NCBI RefSeq assembly: GCF_020905335.1
Contig: NZ_JAJJMN010000001.1
Coordinates: forward strand, 1,364,001 to 1,428,000
Length of the DNA stretch: 64,000 nucleotides
Direction: 5' to 3'
Origin: Flavobacterium lipolyticum
GTDB lineage: Bacteria; Bacteroidota; Bacteroidia; Flavobacteriales; Flavobacteriaceae
The translations under genes and the position numbers were made by a program. The number at the start of each line of letters is the position of its first letter. Position 1 is the first letter of the stretch. Positions 12,217-21,755 of the stretch are shown here, piece after piece. The notes below the pieces were generated by a model. It worked only from the letters and a program-made list of their open reading frames with translations, had not been told where the DNA came from and made no database searches.

Positions 12217-12573
12217 TTAGTCCTGTCCTTTATTCAAATGCTCAATTATACTTTTAAGATCTTCAATCTCTAATTCGTATTTCCTAATAATCTTTCGATA
12301 AATACCAAGCATAGAATAATCTATCAATTGATCAATATTCAACAAACTCTCATAAGTTTTAACCCCTATCTCTTCTCTAACCAATTCTTCCGGTGCTATT
12401 TCAAAAACCTCGCAAATCCTTTTAAAATGAACTGCCCAGGAAGTACTTTCTCCACGTTCCATTCTTGCATAAGCCGATGGTGATATATGAAGACTGTCTG
12501 CTACTTCTTCTTGTGACATATTTTTCGCTTTACGCAGCATCTTTAATTTTTCCCCTACAGTCTTATTCATCAT
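12217..12573 (-). CDS. XRE-family transcriptional regulator (first of two paralogues)
   Basis: A 118-residue DNA-binding protein. The N-terminal HTH (about 6-62) reads KMLRKAKNMSQEEVADSLHISPSAYARMERGES, a canonical XRE/Cro fold. A C-terminal helix, about 85-116 with heptad-like leucines and isoleucines, probably dimerises. It is closely similar to the regulator at 21423-21755, and the two bracket the accessory island. The divergent neighbour is a decayed lipoprotein gene at 12723, so it may once have controlled that gene or may still control the island. Targets are unknown. Confidence 0.9.
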   Translation of the reverse strand: MMNKTVGEKLKMLRKAKNMSQEEVADSLHISPSAYARMERGESTSWAVHFKRICEVFEIAPEELVREEIGVKTYESLLNIDQLIDYSMLGIYRKIIRKYELEIEDLKSIIEHLNKGQD

Positions 12574-13294: not shown

Positions 13295-13516
13295 ATGAAT
13301 TTTTTAAAAGCAGGATTATTAACGGTTGTATTTGCAACAGTTAGTTCAATAGGTCACAGATCTTCAATTGGAGACGGTATAGAATCTCAGATTTCTGGAA
13401 CGAGAGTATACGAATTAAACTCTTCAAGTAGAAATAAAACAACTAAAACTACCAAAACCACCAAAACTACTAAAACCACTAAAACCACTGGAAAATCCTC
13501 CACAATAGACGAGTAG
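13295..13516 (+). CDS. Small secreted peptide precursor with K-T-T repeats (candidate substrate of the HTTM system)
   Basis: A 73-residue predicted precursor. MNFLKAGLLTVVFATVSS is a signal-peptide-like start (one Lys, then a hydrophobic core at 6-18). A linker (HRSSIGDGIESQISG, RVYELNSSSRN) leads to six K-T-T units at residues 48-65 (13436-13489) and a short tail GKSSTIDE. The 9-base DNA units differ only at third codon positions of Thr, so the protein repeat looks maintained. ATG 13295 was chosen over the in-frame ATG at 13253 because the signal peptide starts there. It heads an operon of DUF5819, HTTM, outer-membrane and membrane genes. That it is their substrate is inference. It has no homologue that I can name. 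Confidence 0.72.
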   Translation: MNFLKAGLLTVVFATVSSIGHRSSIGDGIESQISGTRVYELNSSSRNKTTKTTKTTKTTKTTKTTGKSSTIDE

Positions 13517-13525
13517 TTAAATTCA

Positions 13526-13557
13526 TTTATGAAGCTGGTTTAAATCAGCTTCATAAA
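13526..13557 (+). promoter_or_regulatory. Stem-loop between peptide gene and downstream operon
   Basis: A perfect 12-bp stem (TTTATGAAGCTG and CAGCTTCATAAA) closes an 8-base loop, starting 9 bp after the peptide stop codon. No T run follows, so it is more likely a partial terminator, attenuator or mRNA 3'-protecting hairpin than a full terminator. It could let the peptide mRNA accumulate above that of the processing genes. Confidence 0.65.
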
Positions 13558-13604
13558 TTTAAATAAGTTTAGGAGGTTTGACTTATTCATTTAAACACAT
13601 AATT

Positions 13605-14234
13605 ATGTTAAAGCACACGAAAATATATAGATTGATTATAATATCATTTTTATCATTTCATTTCCTGCTGATTATTTCAACACAATGTTACAATCAGGGT
13701 TGGAGTTTTTTCAATTATGAAATATTAGAGAAAATTGATGATAATTATATTAACCCTTACTTTGAACAAAACTGGTGCATGTTTGCCCCAGAACCTCCAC
13801 AAGGAAACGAATATATTATTCTAAAATTTCATTCTAAAAGTATAAACTCTCCTCTTATAGATATTCATGAACAAATAAAGAATAACAGTTTTAGAAATCC
13901 ATTTTCTTTAGATCAGAGGATCATCAAATACATGAGTGAATGTTATAATGATATTATGATTAATCATACTAGAGGATATACTACCGAAAAACTTCTTCAG
14001 AAATCCAATGGCTTATTGTCAATTTTGAATTATTCAAAAATTGTATTAACAAAGCAAGAAAAATTTTTACATCAAATAGCTCCACATGATAGCATAAAAC
14101 TAAACGTATACCTGATTAATGAACCTTTGAGCCCATTCAGAAAACCGAGTTGTAAAAAAAAACAATATTACTTTGAAATCAAAAATATTAATCTAACTAA
14201 AAATATGATTAACAATGAACGAGCATCTTTTTAA
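13605..14234 (+). CDS. DUF5819-like membrane-anchored protein (SdpA-type partner)
   Basis: A 209-residue protein with one N-terminal membrane segment (about 8-26) and an exported domain. The motif YINPYFEQNWCMFAPEPP at 48-65 matches the N-P-x-F-x-Q-x-W-x-x-F-A-P-x-P signature that I associate with DUF5819. In other bacteria such proteins are encoded beside HTTM proteins, and the pair parallels SdpA-SdpB of Bacillus subtilis, needed to mature the SdpC toxin. ATG 13605 is preferred over a TTG at 13578, which is only one base from an AGGAGG at 13571-13576. The gene overlaps the HTTM gene by 20 bp. It contains four cysteines in total. The family assignment is from memory. Confidence 0.7.
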   Translation: MLKHTKIYRLIIISFLSFHFLLIISTQCYNQGWSFFNYEILEKIDDNYINPYFEQNWCMFAPEPPQGNEYIILKFHSKSINSPLIDIHEQIKNNSFRNPFSLDQRIIKYMSECYNDIMINHTRGYTTEKLLQKSNGLLSILNYSKIVLTKQEKFLHQIAPHDSIKLNVYLINEPLSPFRKPSCKKKQYYFEIKNINLTKNMINNERASF

Positions 14235-15102
14235 TAGAAAAATCGGTATAACAATTTTTAGAACCGTAATGGGTGTTCTTATTTTAAAAGACTTTATGAG
14301 CTTTTACTTTAATAGACGTTTTTTGTTTTCTGACGAAGGAATTGTTTCTTACGAACTTTACTTGGATATTATTAACTACTATAATATAGATTGGCTATAT
14401 ATAGATTTTAATAAATCCGTGATTATCAAAGTGTTTTGTTTTTCCGGTATTATATTAAGCACAAGCTTTATGCTTGGAATTTTAACTCGTATTTCTGCAA
14501 TTTTACTCTTTTTTCTATTATTTATATTTAAAATAAGGGCAATTTATCTACTTGATGGATCAGACAATGTGATTTCAGTAATGATCCCATTCTTTATATT
14601 TATAGATTCTTATAGTTTGATCGATTCCTATGAACGATTCTCACTAAATATAAAAAACAAAGTGCAGCCATATTTGAATATTGCTTCGCACTATTTTGTG
14701 ATCGCTATGATGCTACAAGTATGCATAATCTATTTTTTTGCTTCTATGCATAAATTACAGGGCGAATATTGGAGAGAAGGTTCTGCACTATATTATATTT
14801 TAAACAATGATGATTTTTCGGCTAGTTTCTTAAATAAAATACTGACTGAATCTACACTCCTCATTAAATTTATGACATGGTTTGCCATTGCATTTCAGTT
14901 CTCATTTTCATTCCTGGTTTTATTTAAAAAAACAAAAATGAAAATCTTACTGCTTGGTGTTTTATTCCATACCGGAATATTTATTTTGATGCGTATTGAT
15001 AATTTTTCAATCATGATGTTAGCCTGTTATTCAATATTTTTAACAGACAACGAATATGCCAAATTATTTAAAAAAGTAATACCCATTAAACATGCAAACT
15101 AA
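14215..15102 (+). CDS. HTTM-domain integral membrane protein (SdpB / vitamin-K-carboxylase-like)
   Basis: A 295-residue polytopic membrane protein with about seven to eight helices. The segment FFASMHKLQGEYWREGSALY (about 174-193) is the HTTM hallmark, with K180, W186 and G189 as conserved positions; the domain is related to vitamin-K-dependent gamma-carboxylase and occurs in SdpB. HTTM proteins act on small secreted peptides in the Sdp system, so a peptide-processing role here is plausible. It overlaps both neighbours (20 bp with the DUF5819 gene, 11 bp with the outer-membrane gene), indicating tight translational coupling. Whether it is enzymatic is unknown. Confidence 0.82.
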   Translation: MNEHLFNRKIGITIFRTVMGVLILKDFMSFYFNRRFLFSDEGIVSYELYLDIINYYNIDWLYIDFNKSVIIKVFCFSGIILSTSFMLGILTRISAILLFFLLFIFKIRAIYLLDGSDNVISVMIPFFIFIDSYSLIDSYERFSLNIKNKVQPYLNIASHYFVIAMMLQVCIIYFFASMHKLQGEYWREGSALYYILNNDDFSASFLNKILTESTLLIKFMTWFAIAFQFSFSFLVLFKKTKMKILLLGVLFHTGIFILMRIDNFSIMMLACYSIFLTDNEYAKLFKKVIPIKHAN

Positions 15103-17467
15103 ATTTATACTGCTTTTATCTTTTATGAGTATCTCTTTTATTAGTGCGCAAAATATTTCTTACAATGGTATTATTGTCGAAATAAATAAAGAGAAAAGTA
15201 CTGAATTCACAATCTCACTTATTAACACAAAAAATTCTGCGGTTAAATTTTCTGAAGTAGCTCTAAATAATTCTTTTCATTTTACGAATATACCTATTGG
15301 CAAGTATTATAGATGTCTATCATACGAAAACATAAATCAATGTGACAGTATTTACCTTACAGAAAATATTTTTAACGATACTATAAAAATTTTAAAAGAC
15401 GAGAAGTTAGCTGAAGTAGTAGTTACTTCCAAGAAAAAACTTATCGAAAACAAACAAGGCATATTAACAATAAATGTTCAAAATAGCCCCGTAATGTCAA
15501 GTGGCAATGCATTTGAAATGTTAGCAAAATTACCTGGGATAAGTTTTAATATGTCTTCTGATACATTTCGACTAAAAGGGAAAAGTGGTGTACAAATTCA
15601 GATTGATGACAATACTCTATATCTGACAGAGAGTGAATTGATTCAATATCTTAAAACCATCTCGGCCCAAGATGTAAGCCTGTTAGAAATCAACTCTTTA
15701 CCTTCATCTAAATATGACGCATCTGGTCACGGCGGAATAGTAAATATAAAAACTAAAAAAAACAAAAGAGAAGGTTTTTTTGTTGGAGCTACTATGACAT
15801 CTACTCAAGGACAATATTATAAGCAAGAACAGAATATTAAGTTTCAATTTAACACAAAAAAAAACAAATATTTTGTACAGTATAGTAAAAACAATATAAC
15901 AGATTTTGAGAAAGCAGATACAAAGAGACTATTCGCAAGTAATGAAACCCGACAATATACTTTTGCAAAAATCATATCTAAAACCAATGCGATAAATTCT
16001 CAATTTGAACATCAATTTAAGAAATCAAATTTATTACTGAACTCAACCTTTTCATTTTATGACGAGAATATAATACAAAACACTCATCTAGATTTTTATT
16101 CCAGAAATTCCTATATCGATTCAACATTAATCTCAAAACAAATAAGCCATAATAAATTAAAAGATTACAGTATTGGGGTTAATTATACTTTAAATTACGA
16201 TAAATCTACATTTATTATAAAATCAAATTATTCAAGTTATAAAATACGTAATATATCGGATCTTTCTTCCTATTCTCTTCCATCAAATTTTAATCATGGT
16301 AATCTTTTAAATAAATCGCCTAACAACATTAATTTTATTGTAAATCAATTGGATTATGAACATAAAATAGACTCAAACTCTGTAATTCAGTCTGGAGCGA
16401 AAGCGATATTTCAAAATATTGATAATGAAAATTTATTTTTTGATATAAAAGACACCATTGAAAAAGAGCAATTGAATAAAGAAAAGTCTAATGATTATAG
16501 ATATAAAGAATGGATCTTGGGAGGATATGCTCAATATAAGAAAACAATTAAAAAGATTGATTTTATCCTAGGTTCTAGAGTAGAGTCTAATTTTTCCGAA
16601 GGAATCAATAGTAAAAACAGCTATACGTTAAGTCATAATAAAACTAATTTCTTTCCTTTTTTTAGTATCTCATATAATCATTCGCAAACTAATAATTTTA
16701 ATGTGTCCTATAGCAAAAGAATAACCAGACCTACTTTTAATAATCTAATGCCATTTAATTATTATGTGGATCCAAATACAATACTAGTTGGAAATCCTAA
16801 TTTAAAACCCTCCATTTCACACCAGTTTGAGCTACAATACATACTAAAGCAGAATTATGTTTTTGCAATTGACTATTCCATTAATAAAAATGAAATTTTC
16901 CAAACGCCTCTTCAAAACAATGAGATCTTATCTACAATTTTAACACCACTCAATATTAAAAACGGCAATTCTTTATCTTTTAGCAATAACTCGACATTTG
17001 ATTTATTTAAATGGTGGAATCTAAATTTTAACATTGTTATGTTCTATGATACCATTAAATCTTCAGACGATTTTTTAAGCATTAATTCTTACAACTGGTC
17101 AAACCAATTTACCACTACTAATTTATTTACTTTTCCTAACAACTTTAATCTAGAAATAGTAAACGAATACATTTCTCCTTTTATTCAAGGCCCCTACAAA
17201 ACAAATTATCTGTTTTCTTTAAATTCAAGTATAAGTAAAACCTTTTTAAGTAAAAGACTTAAGGCCTCTATTACTGCAAATGATATTTTAGGAACATATA
17301 AACTTAAAAGTACTTCAATAATTCTGGATCAATACTCATTTATTTTTCAAAAATTTGACACGAAATGGATTAGGTTCAGTATAACGTATAAACTTACAAA
17401 GGGAATAAAAAAACAGATAATTGAGGCAGATAGCATCAATGAAGAAATCAAATCCAGGACAAAATAA
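15092..17467 (+). CDS. Plug-barrel outer-membrane protein of the peptide operon
   Basis: A 791-residue outer-membrane protein. A signal peptide ends at ISAQ (about 20), an N-terminal beta-sandwich-like region follows, then a TonB-plug-like domain (about 115-225: LAEVVVTSKKK, PGISFNMSSDTF, LPSSKYDASGHGGIVNIKTKK), then a beta-barrel of the outer-membrane beta-barrel family type. The SSKYDA-G-G-x-V-N-I-x-T signature is shared with the barrel at 17994-20165. It overlaps the HTTM gene by 11 bp. Given its operon, an outer-membrane route for the peptide is a reasonable guess. The gene is very A/T-rich compared with flanking housekeeping genes, consistent with transfer. Confidence 0.85.
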   Translation: MQTKFILLLSFMSISFISAQNISYNGIIVEINKEKSTEFTISLINTKNSAVKFSEVALNNSFHFTNIPIGKYYRCLSYENINQCDSIYLTENIFNDTIKILKDEKLAEVVVTSKKKLIENKQGILTINVQNSPVMSSGNAFEMLAKLPGISFNMSSDTFRLKGKSGVQIQIDDNTLYLTESELIQYLKTISAQDVSLLEINSLPSSKYDASGHGGIVNIKTKKNKREGFFVGATMTSTQGQYYKQEQNIKFQFNTKKNKYFVQYSKNNITDFEKADTKRLFASNETRQYTFAKIISKTNAINSQFEHQFKKSNLLLNSTFSFYDENIIQNTHLDFYSRNSYIDSTLISKQISHNKLKDYSIGVNYTLNYDKSTFIIKSNYSSYKIRNISDLSSYSLPSNFNHGNLLNKSPNNINFIVNQLDYEHKIDSNSVIQSGAKAIFQNIDNENLFFDIKDTIEKEQLNKEKSNDYRYKEWILGGYAQYKKTIKKIDFILGSRVESNFSEGINSKNSYTLSHNKTNFFPFFSISYNHSQTNNFNVSYSKRITRPTFNNLMPFNYYVDPNTILVGNPNLKPSISHQFELQYILKQNYVFAIDYSINKNEIFQTPLQNNEILSTILTPLNIKNGNSLSFSNNSTFDLFKWWNLNFNIVMFYDTIKSSDDFLSINSYNWSNQFTTTNLFTFPNNFNLEIVNEYISPFIQGPYKTNYLFSLNSSISKTFLSKRLKASITANDILGTYKLKSTSIILDQYSFIFQKFDTKWIRFSITYKLTKGIKKQIIEADSINEEIKSRTK

Positions 17468-17482
17468 AATTAATCGTATTTT

Positions 17483-17953
17483 ATGACAATTGGTGTGCAA
17501 ACTGCAATAGAACTTGGAGTACCAATTCTGGTTTTGTTACTTTTTACAGTTAAAAAAATATTCGACCCTTATCAATCATTAAGCACCAAAACCTTCAATC
17601 CAAAATACTACTTTCTTTTAATCACTTTTGCATTATGCATACTCACAAATCCTTTCAGAGCCATCGAAAGCCAGATTACAATAATAATGGTCTCATTATA
17701 CTTCATTATCCTAAACAAGGAAAAGATTAAATACGCTTATAAAATCGATAGAAACATACTCTTATTTATAATTCTTATTATTATTTCAACAACTGTTAAG
17801 AAACAATACTATCTGGTAAGATGGAAAGAACTTAGCGAAAAAACTAAACATACCACTCACCCGACTGTTTTCTATAGAGATAAGCCAATTACTTATACTA
17901 CAGCTCTGCTGACTTGCAAAAAAAAACGATTATATCAAAATACAAAGTCATGA
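17483..17953 (+). CDS. Small four-helix membrane protein at the end of the peptide operon
   Basis: A 156-residue protein with about four hydrophobic segments (roughly 8-25, 43-56, 62-80, 92-106) and a basic C-terminal tail with many Lys, Thr and Tyr. No named domain is recognised. It starts 15 bp after the plug-barrel gene and is the last gene of the operon. By analogy with bacteriocin and Sdp operons it could be an immunity protein or an extra maturation subunit; this is inference from size, topology and position only. Confidence 0.65.
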   Translation: MTIGVQTAIELGVPILVLLLFTVKKIFDPYQSLSTKTFNPKYYFLLITFALCILTNPFRAIESQITIIMVSLYFIILNKEKIKYAYKIDRNILLFIILIIISTTVKKQYYLVRWKELSEKTKHTTHPTVFYRDKPITYTTALLTCKKKRLYQNTKS

Positions 17954-17993: not shown

Positions 17994-20165
17994 TTATCTT
18001 GCTCTGTTATTCTCCACTTCTTCTGTTTTTAATTTCTTAAACGCTTGTTTTTTTGAATTTCCAAAAGTATAGGTCGCAACCAGTCTGAAATAGTTTGTTG
18101 TATAGGTTCTGTGATAATAGATTTCGGTTTGTCCTACATTATAATTTCCGGAAGTTCTAAATTTGTGAAAGATGTCATTGGCTGTAAAATTTAGTTTTAA
18201 AGCATCATCAAAAAAGTTTCTTTCAATTCCAATAGTTACTGTCGACCGATCATCATCATGACCCAATCCGTAACTTCTGTCTCCCAAATACCAGGCAAGC
18301 AGCTGTATTTTGAACAGATTGGGGATTGTAAACGTATTGTTCGAATACAAATACAACTGTGGTTTTACAGCACCAAATTCATATGAATATTTATGATCAA
18401 CCGCTTTGCTATAACTGACACTTACCGTATTTACAGAACTCCAAATTTTATTTTTGAACGATCTTGAAAGAGAGGTAAAAAAAGTATTTTCTCTATCAAA
18501 ATTTATCGATCTTAAGATATAACTGTTCGGCTTCTCTCCTCGCAAAGCAGCTCCGGATATAGGATCTATTCTATGTGTATATCCTATTTTAAAATCGAAT
18601 TTTCTGTAGAATGCACCAATTTCAAAAGCATGAATTTTTTCCGGCAACAAATTAGGATTTCCTTCTATGGTCGTAAAAGGATCCTGGTAAATGACAAATG
18701 GATTTAAAGACTGATATCGTGGTCTTGTTATTCTGGAAACATAAGACGCATGCACCTTTAATTCATCCAAAACATTCACATTCAACAGAACGTTTGGAAA
18801 AAAATTCGCATAACTTTTTTTAAATTCCTGATTTCCGTTAGCATTGGTACGCAAATCGTAATTGGTCCACTCGCCTCGGGCACCAAGCGAATAACTAAAC
18901 TTTTCACTTAATGATGACAGGTAACTAAAATAAGCTGCACCAATTTCTTCGTCGTATTTAAAATCACTTGAAAGCCCCGTGTCCACTTCAAAATCACTTT
19001 CTTTTACTTTCGATACCAAAAAATTCGTTTTAGAATTGATCGCAGCGCGGCTAAATTTAGCCCCCATTTCTAATGTTGTATCTTCATCTATCTTTTTAGT
19101 AAAATCTGACTGTAGGCTTGTAATATTTGTAGTGTTTTCTACAATGTTCTTTAAATATTTTTCAGTCAGAAAGCTATCGACCAGACCATTTTCATCAATG
19201 AAATCATCAACATTCCCATTATAATTAGAATATTGGGTAGCCACAAATAATGATGAACCCTGATCATCTGTTACCACATTATAATTTAAATTAATGAACT
19301 GATTTAACAACACATCATTTTTAGAAATGTTGGTACTGTAAAGGCTATTGCTACTGTTATTTGTTATGGCATTACGACTTTTAACCGCTCCTCCTAAATC
19401 TGCGACATTTCCGCTATACCCCAACGTAATGTACTGTTTGTCCGAGATGGTATATTGCAATCCAAATCCAAAATTCGAGTAATTATTAAATTGTCTTTGC
19501 CAATCTGTAGTCAATTTTGATTGCAGATACTCGTCGGTATTGGATCTTGTTCTTGTGGTATATAATAATTCCCTTCCTTTTCCTAATTGCAATCCGTAAT
19601 TGGTTATAAAAGAGAACTTGCCTTTTGTATAATTAAAATCGAGCAGTGTATTGGTGCTGGTTCCGGCAAATTCAGAAACGGTAATCTGCTGACTTGCTGT
19701 TCCCATTATTCCGTTTTCAATATTCTTTTTGGTAATAATATTGATCACTGCTTTTCCTTCGGCATCGTATTTTGAGGAAGGATTGGAAACAACTTCAATC
19801 TTCAGAATTTGCGAAACCGGAATTGCAGCAAATCGTTCGTAGTTAATCAAAATTCCATTGAGATAAATAATTGCTTCACCTTTTCCAAGCACGCTAATTT
19901 GTCCATCAGCTGCAATAACATTTGGAACTCTGCCTAATAATTCAGTAACAGAACTACTGGTGGAAAGTAATGTATTTGCAACCAAAACCTCAACACTTCC
20001 GTTTGCTCCATGTTTTAACAATGACGGCTGACTTTTTATAACCACTTCCTTTAACTCATCACTCTGATTTAAAACCTTATCCTGATTTGTTGGTTTAGAT
20101 TGTGCTTTTGAGGTTATAGAACAGAAAAATAAAAAACAGGAAGAAAGGGTAACAAGGGATCTCAT
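17994..20165 (-). CDS. Plug-barrel outer-membrane protein (paralogous family to 15092-17467)
   Basis: A 723-residue outer-membrane receptor-like protein. The signal peptide ends near SKAQ (about 22). The plug-like domain spans about 38-150 (ELKEVVIKSQ, LLGRVPNVIAADG, NPSSKYDAEGKAVINIITKKN), and the rest is a beta-barrel. It belongs to the outer-membrane beta-barrel family often annotated TonB-dependent receptor. It lies 102 bp downstream of an AraC-type membrane regulator on the same strand, which probably controls it. It converges with the peptide operon, 40 bp apart, with no clear terminator hairpin between them. Ligand unknown. Confidence 0.85.
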   Translation of the reverse strand: MRSLVTLSSCFLFFCSITSKAQSKPTNQDKVLNQSDELKEVVIKSQPSLLKHGANGSVEVLVANTLLSTSSSVTELLGRVPNVIAADGQISVLGKGEAIIYLNGILINYERFAAIPVSQILKIEVVSNPSSKYDAEGKAVINIITKKNIENGIMGTASQQITVSEFAGTSTNTLLDFNYTKGKFSFITNYGLQLGKGRELLYTTRTRSNTDEYLQSKLTTDWQRQFNNYSNFGFGLQYTISDKQYITLGYSGNVADLGGAVKSRNAITNNSSNSLYSTNISKNDVLLNQFINLNYNVVTDDQGSSLFVATQYSNYNGNVDDFIDENGLVDSFLTEKYLKNIVENTTNITSLQSDFTKKIDEDTTLEMGAKFSRAAINSKTNFLVSKVKESDFEVDTGLSSDFKYDEEIGAAYFSYLSSLSEKFSYSLGARGEWTNYDLRTNANGNQEFKKSYANFFPNVLLNVNVLDELKVHASYVSRITRPRYQSLNPFVIYQDPFTTIEGNPNLLPEKIHAFEIGAFYRKFDFKIGYTHRIDPISGAALRGEKPNSYILRSINFDRENTFFTSLSRSFKNKIWSSVNTVSVSYSKAVDHKYSYEFGAVKPQLYLYSNNTFTIPNLFKIQLLAWYLGDRSYGLGHDDDRSTVTIGIERNFFDDALKLNFTANDIFHKFRTSGNYNVGQTEIYYHRTYTTNYFRLVATYTFGNSKKQAFKKLKTEEVENNRAR

Positions 20166-21422: not shown

Positions 21423-21755
21423 CTACACCTTCTTCAGATCGCGAATGGTTTGTTTTAACTCTTTTATACGTTCTTCATATTCCTCAATTATTTTACCCGA
21501 TAAATGAGCGGTGGTAGTGGAGAAACCCTCCCCATTCAGATCCTGTTTTTTATGTTCCACTTTCAATAAATCCTCGGGAATTATCTCAAAAATTTCGCAG
21601 ATTCTTAAAATATGATTCGCCCATGAACTGCTTTCACCACTTTCCATTCTGGCATATGCTGATTGTGAGATGTGAAGAAAATCTGCCACTTCTTCCTGTG
21701 ACATTCTCTTATTTTTCCGAAGTATTTTAAGCTTGTTTCCTACAATTACATTCAT
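21423..21755 (-). CDS. XRE-family transcriptional regulator (second of two paralogues)
   Basis: A 110-residue protein with an N-terminal XRE HTH (about 5-61: ILRKNKRMSQEEVADFLHISQSAYARMESGES) and a C-terminal coiled helix (EEYEERIKELKQTIRDLKK) for dimerisation. The HTH and the following RICEIFEIIPEDLL are nearly the same as in the protein at 12217-12573, so the two are paralogues by duplication or by shared transfer. Together they bracket 12.6-21.4 kb. It is monocistronic. Target genes are unknown. Confidence 0.9.
   Translation of the reverse strand: MNVIVGNKLKILRKNKRMSQEEVADFLHISQSAYARMESGESSSWANHILRICEIFEIIPEDLLKVEHKKQDLNGEGFSTTTAHLSGKIIEEYEERIKELKQTIRDLKKV

Follow-up and report, generated by a model that had tools for sequence, protein, structure and literature searches.

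In Bacillus, SdpA and SdpB are needed for the processing of SdpC, according to PMC6818787; proteins resembling SdpAB have been described from Streptomyces, and one resembling SdpC from Myxococcus (PMC3924187). An HTTM protein is likewise encoded with the peptide corynaridin, in which all Thr and Ser residues are dehydrated, and is one of the genes suspected in this dehydration (PMC9927463). Searches of the open literature yielded no paper mentioning DUF5819 by name, none treating SdpB together with a gamma-glutamyl carboxylase, and no experimental study of any member of the DUF5819-HTTM family considered below.

The window (the whole 64,000-nucleotide stretch of Flavobacterium lipolyticum DNA that was analysed) contains an operon that probably forms an SDP-like unit for maturing a secreted peptide, equipped with an outer-membrane protein of its own (Table 1). 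Within a large DUF5819-HTTM family related to SdpA-SdpB of Bacillus, it would represent a branch that is Gram-negative and Thr-rich, and the observed basis for this comprises the gene order, families, homology, conserved K180, W186 and F264, the conserved precursor and the predicted GGCX fold. The ORF listing returned the five reading frames, the overlaps of 20 and 11 bp and the 15-bp gap as the preliminary description gave them, and both of its motifs were found as written (NPYFEQNWCMFAP and FFASMHKLQGEYWREG). Its family assignments also stood, with scores of 35.2 bits for DUF5819 (PF19136; gathering cut-off 27.1), 48.3 for HTTM (27.7) and 265.1 for OMP_b-brl_3 (27), while the inclusion of a “four-helix membrane protein” in the operon did not. 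Families are assigned, the precursor is kept and the outer-membrane gene is not found without the pair in the genomes searched, so that none of the three outcomes named at the outset as counting against the proposal occurred. The DCC1-like remnant, the hairpin after the precursor, the GGCX fold and the insertion are observations beyond that description.

Table 1. Features of the operon and its surroundings, in window positions.
Feature	Coordinates	Strand	Length, evidence or remark
XRE-type regulator	12217..12573	-	Pfam; sits within inserted block
Precursor peptide gene	13295..13516	+	73 aa; ORF listing opens the frame at upstream GTG 13253
Hairpin between precursor and processing genes	13525..13558	+	inverted repeat I4; folding z-scores
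DUF5819 protein	13605..14234	+	PF19136; AF2 model; profile match to SdpA
HTTM membrane protein	14215..15102	+	295 aa; diverged SdpB; GGCX membrane-domain fold
Plug-barrel outer-membrane protein	15092..17467	+	791 aa; OMP_b-brl_3 / TonB-dependent receptor type
DCC1-like thiol-disulfide oxidoreductase remnant	17464..17550	+	home-made DCC HMM and translation
ORF5	17483..17953	+	156 aa, hydrophobic; probably outside system

The two processing proteins resemble SdpA and SdpB, as had been proposed. By hhalign, the HTTM protein matches a profile of four SdpB proteins at 99.3% (E 2e-20), and by sequence it is a diverged SdpB, scoring 58 bits with the SdpB model TIGR04033, far under the cut-off of 178.4. 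The DUF5819 protein is by the same kind of family-level profile comparison a diverged SdpA-like protein (86%, E about 5e-6), with zero matches to the SdpA model TIGR04034 across the whole genome. It comprises 218 aa if read from TTG 13578; the alignments used ATG 13605 instead, which gives 209 aa. Its PF19136 match is confined to residues 55–84. The AF2 model (pLDDT 89.3) has a long N-terminal helix, likely a membrane anchor, and a mixed alpha/beta domain; no recognised solved fold matched this predicted structure.

The predicted fold of the HTTM protein is that of the GGCX membrane domain, with K180 aligned to the GGCX base Lys218 (K218). K180, W186 and F264 are identical in all 51 rows of alignment A1, and the K218 column holds Lys in 62 of the 72 DUF5819-HTTM pair loci and in 4/4 SdpB, the other ten pair loci having Gln. 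The Glu-pocket residues N159/H160 of GGCX are replaced by V119/I120, and Asn in the first or His in the second of these columns occurs in 0/72 pair loci and 0/27 others; Glu carboxylation is therefore unlikely as the product chemistry.

Pairing of the two families is more frequent than chance: 72 of 99 HTTM ORFs (excluding six duplicate loci and L020, for which no HTTM ORF was called) have a DUF5819-type motif ORF ending no more than 700 bp upstream, with the partner called by regular expression and related species counted separately. The view that Bacteroidota otherwise lack such systems did not hold, as Hymenobacter, Pedobacter, Belliella and others also carry pairs, with at least one precursor-like gene ahead of them. 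Retention of a short signal-peptide gene upstream was borne out across the family, a signal-peptide-like ORF preceding the DUF5819-type partner in 55 of the 69 pair loci whose upstream DNA was long enough, compared with 149/899 control ORFs of the same loci.

The precursor in the window consists of a Sec-like signal peptide, a conserved linker ending in SRN and a 27-residue tail (NKTTKTT...STIDE). It matches no NCBIfam model, that of SdpC included, and none of the ten short peptide genes scanned lies above the cut-off of any Pfam or NCBIfam model. Homologous precursors occupy the same position in loci L010 (Chryseobacterium), L011, L012, L023, L101 and L102, as does a similar one in L032 (Rhodohalobacter). 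A precursor profile search recovered 14 relatives; nine of the 12 inspected are of the Myroides type, and among those 12 the Thr tails of P0089 and P0090 are much shorter and the RN motif is absent from P0088. A second Polaribacter copy has a precursor with few Thr residues. No hydrophobic segment follows the signal peptide of the Thr-tail precursor, unlike in SDP, and the aligned precursors contain no conserved Cys or His for metal binding, which speaks against a metallophore. DNA repeat slippage is unlikely as the sole origin of the Thr tract because the tracts mix Thr codons. The product had been called cationic, a label that was dropped since tail charge is +5 in the window, -2 in Chryseobacterium, +3 in Polaribacter and +1 in Rhodohalobacter. 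The hairpin behind the precursor gene folds with z = -5.72, and the same place gives -3.40 in L010, -5.20 in L102, -2.88 in L012, -2.68 in L101 and a non-significant -1.18 in L032; it is perhaps a partial terminator or attenuator.

The outer-membrane protein exceeds the cut-offs of two plug-barrel models, the second at 53.5 against 27 bits. Its matches at E<=1e-90 are limited to 2/395 genomes of the host’s order, the same two that carry a Flavobacteriia-type HTTM, in keeping with the proposal of a dedicated outer-membrane gene. Its tree places it in a clade with the Chryseobacterium and Polaribacter operon copies (support 100/100), and in the loci compared a window-type gene follows HTTM only where a Thr-tail precursor adjoins. 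In the genomes searched, the protein is thus dedicated to the Thr-tail operon class; outward transport through it is possible, at somewhat less than even odds.

Downstream, an open frame at 17443–17550 matches DCC (E 2.5e-5) but retains only the N-terminal part, with no in-frame ATG and a stop codon at its end. An intact DCC1-like gene occupies this position in Polaribacter, while L010 and L032 keep the rest of the operon with no DCC1-like gene within 4.5 kb. In 33/72 pair loci a DCC1-like domain is either part of a fusion or encoded close by, a count made without a control set. The ORF5 start codon falls inside the DCC1-like frame (N-terminus IKLIVFYDNWCANCNRTW...). ORF5 has a single relative in the protein search, the 94% identical P0076, and is present in 1/249 genus genomes, its own, and absent from the other 248. 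P0076 starts at the ORF5 start position with a changed residue; by codon-table reasoning, the DCC1-like frame thereby loses its first Cys and is not kept there. A weak indication also suggests that the P0076 source has ORF5 but no DUF5819-HTTM pair. On these grounds ORF5 is unlikely to be an operon member or the immunity gene it had been suggested to be, and probably lies outside the system. No SdpI-type NCBIfam match was found among the operon proteins scanned.

The operon sits in an insertion whose site is unoccupied in relatives: aspartokinase and OMP2 adjoin directly, the inserted block missing, in 4/5. A close HTTM occurs in 2/249 genus genomes (this one and one Myroides-type), the region has low GC, and the preferred reading includes horizontal acquisition. 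The XRE-type regulator has no match at E<=1e-3 in any of the related loci listed above, L032 included.

In the SDP-like maturation unit that we favour, the precursor would be made in excess, with the hairpin limiting read-through into downstream genes, exported via Sec and then cut by signal peptidase. On the periplasmic side, DUF5819 may hold the peptide against HTTM, which would bind menaquinol and, through K180 and O2, generate a strong base, as GGCX does with vitamin K. This chemistry could alter the peptide, possibly in the Thr-rich tail after [SH]RN, or prime its cleavage, with a DCC1-like protein, broken in the window, recycling a redox partner in relatives. The mature peptide would cross the outer membrane through the dedicated barrel and, by analogy with SDP, most likely serve as a toxin against competitors. 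Within this scheme quinol-linked chemistry is the more tentative element, possible but doubtful.

A rather unlikely alternative dispenses with chemistry, DUF5819 and HTTM forming nothing more than a chaperone or processing pair through which some protease can release the peptide, the GGCX fold being kept with its activity lost and the outer-membrane protein exporting a plain Thr-rich peptide. It accords with the description of SdpA and SdpB as required for processing (PMC6818787), the loss of the Glu-pocket residues and the Gln in ten pair loci; the invariance of K180, W186 and F264 argues the other way, as does the recurrence of DCC1-like domains noted above, for which a pure chaperone has no obvious need. 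The fate of the operon itself has also been considered. As its DCC1-like gene is broken, the operon may be partly decayed, and at the extreme it would be a transferred import that has lost this part and no longer makes its product, so that conservation in relatives would not apply to it. The remnant, the rarity of close HTTM genes in the genus and the low GC are consistent with this, but all four reading frames are uninterrupted and complete, their overlaps being short, and L010 and L032 keep the remaining genes while lacking a DCC1-like gene, leaving it very unlikely.

TonB-dependent receptors are best known for import and serve peptide metallophores such as methanobactin. The peptide could accordingly be a re-imported signal or metal-binding peptide rather than a weapon, with the plug-barrel protein as its receptor. 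Its receptor type, its restriction to Thr-tail precursors among the loci and genomes searched and the lack of a recognised immunity gene would fit; set against these, the precursors share no metal-binding Cys or His, and a sister class has Gly/Ala-rich, bacteriocin-like precursors and, in 11/72 loci, a 4-helix candidate immunity protein. Re-uptake is judged improbable.

The boldest version of the favoured maturation unit, itself unlikely, is a new ribosomal peptide class in which a GGCX-fold enzyme using menaquinol and O2 acts outside the cytoplasm on a peptide exported by Sec and converts its Thr-rich tail (e.g. by dehydration or epimerisation), DUF5819 holding the substrate before passage through the dedicated barrel. 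If true, the pair and its FD-tagged precursors would also serve Bacillota, Actinomycetota and other Bacteroidota, and vitamin-K-type chemistry would therefore be an old and widespread means by which bacteria mature the peptide toxins they secrete, SDP among them. As SdpB/HTTM is tied to GGCX by predicted fold and base residue, and to a short-peptide partner conserved in several phyla (bearing an FD tag at its C-terminus or, in the window, a Thr tail), quinol-dependent toxin maturation becomes directly testable. The family also points to a reservoir of short peptide genes, and its Flavobacteriia branch, by adding an outer-membrane component, offers a route to study peptide passage across the outer membrane.

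Among known systems, SdpABC and YitPOM of Bacillus subtilis share a secreted signal-peptide precursor and a small Q-x-W-x-F/L-F partner directly before the SdpB/HTTM membrane protein, both partners being related by profile to the window pair. They differ in that the window partner belongs, by model, to DUF5819 rather than SdpA, and the window precursor is Thr-rich, lies upstream rather than downstream and has neither SdpC similarity nor a hydrophobic domain after the signal peptide; the window also adds an outer-membrane protein and has no recognised SdpI-like gene. The FD-ending-precursor class, found in several phyla, has the same pair in the same order with the precursor directly upstream, but its precursors are of 91–146 aa, often Gly/Ala-rich and end in FD, whereas that of the window is shorter and Thr-tailed. 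Behind its HTTM there is no window-like outer-membrane gene, and the 4-helix family found downstream in some of its loci is absent from the window. Compared with GGCX, the window HTTM is a 295-aa protein with a separate DUF5819 partner and a replaced Glu pocket, and since the alignment spans GGCX residues 52–321 only, it has no propeptide-binding domain. As to the linaridins (corynaridin, cypemycin), corynaridin shares an HTTM protein encoded with the peptide, and the linaridin partner, an alpha/beta hydrolase of CrdE type, is absent by Pfam from the five operon proteins; the window precursor differs in its Sec-like signal peptide, and any modification would therefore take place outside the cytoplasm.

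The operon comprises four genes on the + strand across window positions 13295-17467 (table), of which the HTTM gene is probably a diverged relative of sdpB and the DUF5819 gene, with less certainty, of sdpA. These assignments follow from profile comparisons: an HTTM profile built from 51 relatives matched four SdpB sequences at 99.3% (E 2e-20, 264 columns), and a DUF5819 profile of 42 sequences matched four SdpA sequences at 86% (E 4.8e-6) in an alignment that takes in the Q-x-W motif region. Against NCBIfam, the sole match of the window HTTM protein was SdpB, below threshold (58 vs 178.4). Ten Bacillota HTTM proteins (L041, L043, L046, L048, L049, L055, L057, L059, L062 and L065; L-numbers denote HTTM loci gathered from other genomes) carry Gln, rather than the otherwise conserved Lys, at the column of K218 in the vitamin K-dependent gamma-glutamyl carboxylase (GGCX).

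Features of the operon and its surroundings (window positions)
Feature	Position	Strand	Basis or remark
XRE regulator	12217-12573	-	inside inserted block
Precursor, 73 aa	13295-13516	+	reading frame
Strong hairpin, 3' of precursor gene	13525-13558		z -5.72
DUF5819 protein	13605-14234 (TTG start 13578 possible)	+	Pfam 35.2, cut-off 27.1
HTTM protein	14215-15102	+	Pfam 48.3, cut-off 27.7
Plug-barrel outer-membrane protein (OMP)	15092-17467	+	Pfam OMP_b-brl_3 265.1, cut-off 27
DCC1-like thiol-disulfide oxidoreductase gene remnant	17464-17550		profile match
Second OMP_b-brl_3 barrel	17994-20165	-	flanks operon; part of old backbone
Second XRE regulator, related to the first	21423-21755	-	other side of operon; in 2/5 relatives

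Directly 5' of the DUF5819-HTTM pair, homologous precursors are encoded in Chryseobacterium lathyri (L010), Polaribacter cellanae (L102; species taken from P0059/P0087) and four Myroides-type loci (L011, L012, L023 and L101), and a precursor of weak similarity occupies this place in Rhodohalobacter (L032). All eight, including that of the window, carry [S/H]RN ahead of a variable tail. From the N onwards, the tails of the window, L010, L102 and L032 span 27, 29, 28 and 27 aa, with 13, 17, 15 and 18 Thr and net charges of +5, -2, +3 and +1, respectively; their Thr codons are a mixture of three or four kinds, suggesting that selection acts on the protein. Myroides tails are rich in Ser, Thr and Asn, lack any extended run of Thr and terminate in PRR. 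A precursor profile search returned 14 relatives, and the 12 inspected included nine of Myroides type (one, P0088, without RN), one with a long Thr tail (P0087) and two with short Thr tails (P0089 and P0090). The window, C. lathyri and Rhodohalobacter precursors were not returned by this search, possibly because small genes are often omitted from protein sets. The hairpin behind the precursor gene recurs at the equivalent spot in all five related loci folded, namely L010 (z -3.40), L102 (z -5.20), the near-identical Myroides-type loci L012 (z -2.88) and L101 (z -2.68), and L032, where it is not significant (z -1.18). It may act as a partial terminator keeping the precursor in excess.

Among 72 loci with both pair genes, 69 of them with at least 2 kb downstream, a window-like OMP gene overlaps the HTTM end in three: L010 (-11 bp), L102 (-4 bp) and L032 (-38 bp). 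The same three loci alone have at least 15 Thr in the final 35 residues of the precursor (3 of 75 candidates from 69 pair loci), and the window is a fourth case of a Thr-tail precursor with an OMP gene behind HTTM. The OMP tree groups the three operon OMPs of Flavobacteriia in a single clade (100/100), separate from 22 other OMPs of the same genomes, and the HTTM tree likewise unites the Flavobacteriia class (98/99); the Rhodohalobacter position is unresolved in both, with a long branch in the latter. The association of Thr tail and OMP is thus supported by one clade and one distant lineage. Across 395 genomes of the order, an OMP orthologue (E<=1e-90) occurs in two, the window genome and Polaribacter, and HTTM (E<=1e-35) in four, these two and two of a distant type with no OMP gene behind HTTM.

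The operon has a GC content of 27.4%, against 34.6% for the window, a value equally low in 4 of 240 overlapping sliding windows. The block is flanked by aspartokinase and the second barrel gene, whose orthologues in five relatives share ~26-27% identity with the operon OMP. These flanking genes adjoin, with 82-213 bp between them, in four of the five relatives; the stretch examined in the remaining relative yielded no aspartokinase. HTTM was detected (E<=1e-20) in 8 of 249 genus genomes, and a close HTTM in two, the window genome and a Myroides-type genome. Three genus loci (L105, L106 and L107) have distant HTTM proteins with no DUF5819 partner detected, and these likely serve an unrelated use.

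The preliminary description had counted a four-helix membrane protein behind the OMP gene, here ORF5 (156 aa, start 17483), as an operon member. The frame is real, yet its start codon lies within a second frame (IKLIVFYDNWCANCNRTW...) that matches a DCC1-like profile (E 2.5e-5, model positions 4-24 only). The protein search returned one relative of ORF5, and of the 249 genus genomes none of the other 248 gave a match; for these reasons ORF5 is left out of the system. At the equivalent position, Polaribacter (L102) has an intact 125-aa DCC1-like gene overlapping the OMP gene end (PF04134, 40.2 vs 27.8); intact copies also occur in the relative L122 and beside real SdpABC (L108). The DCC1-like domain is fused to HTTM in 11 of the 72 pair loci and lies within 4.5 kb in 22 more, counts that have no control set, include 4 of 33 with an opposite-strand match only, and derive from a profile with 7 of 10 seeds drawn from the same loci.

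A sister class of precursors extends into other phyla. Of the 69 pair loci that offer 700 bp or more of upstream sequence, 55 have a secreted short ORF ahead of the pair, compared with 149 of 899 control ORFs (at least 150 aa, same loci, at least 4 kb distant), and a candidate has FD among its last ten residues in 44 of 69 loci, compared with 2 of 157 control candidates. These precursors, frequently Gly/Ala-rich and with endings such as VVFDQ, RAFDN, VIFDK, AYFDR and DFSxFDN, come from Bacillota, Actinomycetota, Bacteroidota and one Armatimonadota MAG (L013-L019, L021, L022, L024-L029, L031, L033, L034, L036, L038, L041-L047, L049, L051, L052, L054, L055, L057-L059, L062, L065, L067, L068, L071, L073-L075 and L085). 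A scan of ten precursors, eight from the FD class, gave no match to a Pfam or NCBIfam family over cut-off. FD is absent from the Flavobacteriia class; near the C-terminus, most of its tails combine a hydrophobic residue with Asp/Glu (STIDE, SSLDPSL, SKLEAAL, PVIE), a feature that may correspond to FD. A 4-helix-type hydrophobic protein of ~175 aa, searched with five seeds from L122 and four of the loci, lies downstream of HTTM in 11 of 72 pair loci, all Bacteroidota and none of the Thr class (L014, L015, L016, L017, L018, L019, L021, L022, L025, L103 and L104), and is a candidate immunity protein of the sister class.

Beyond the established gene content, homology, predicted fold, conservation and insertion, a pathway can be proposed in which the precursor would be exported by Sec and held by the DUF5819 protein, with quinol-driven chemistry taking place at K180 of the HTTM protein, which aligns with the GGCX base K218. 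The peptide would be cleaved at [SH]RN and transported by the OMP, and may be toxic. Alternatively, DUF5819 and HTTM could be a pure processing pair, the product could be a signal or metal peptide that is re-imported, or the operon could have decayed. The boldest chemistry that fits would be dehydration or epimerisation of the tail Thr, as suggested by the corynaridin (linaridin) cluster, which encodes an HTTM protein among the genes suspected of Thr/Ser dehydration, every Thr and Ser of the peptide being dehydrated (PMC9927463). Against this, linaridins have partner enzymes not seen in the window operon, and a 2023 review describes kinase-and-lyase type enzymes as involved in cypemycin dehydration (PMC10880069), which would leave HTTM another role.

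The open papers searched contained nothing on DUF5819 and nothing linking SdpB with gamma-glutamyl carboxylase. SdpAB-like proteins outside Bacillus have already been published (PMC3924187), and processing of SdpC to SDP is reported to require SdpA and SdpB (PMC6818787). Plasmid NZ_CP137637 of Niallia has a DCC1-like gene, SdpA, SdpB and an SdpC toxin gene in succession. Set beside these systems, the operon is a genuine and conserved Gram-negative branch of SDP-type maturation, one for which the searches gave no earlier description.
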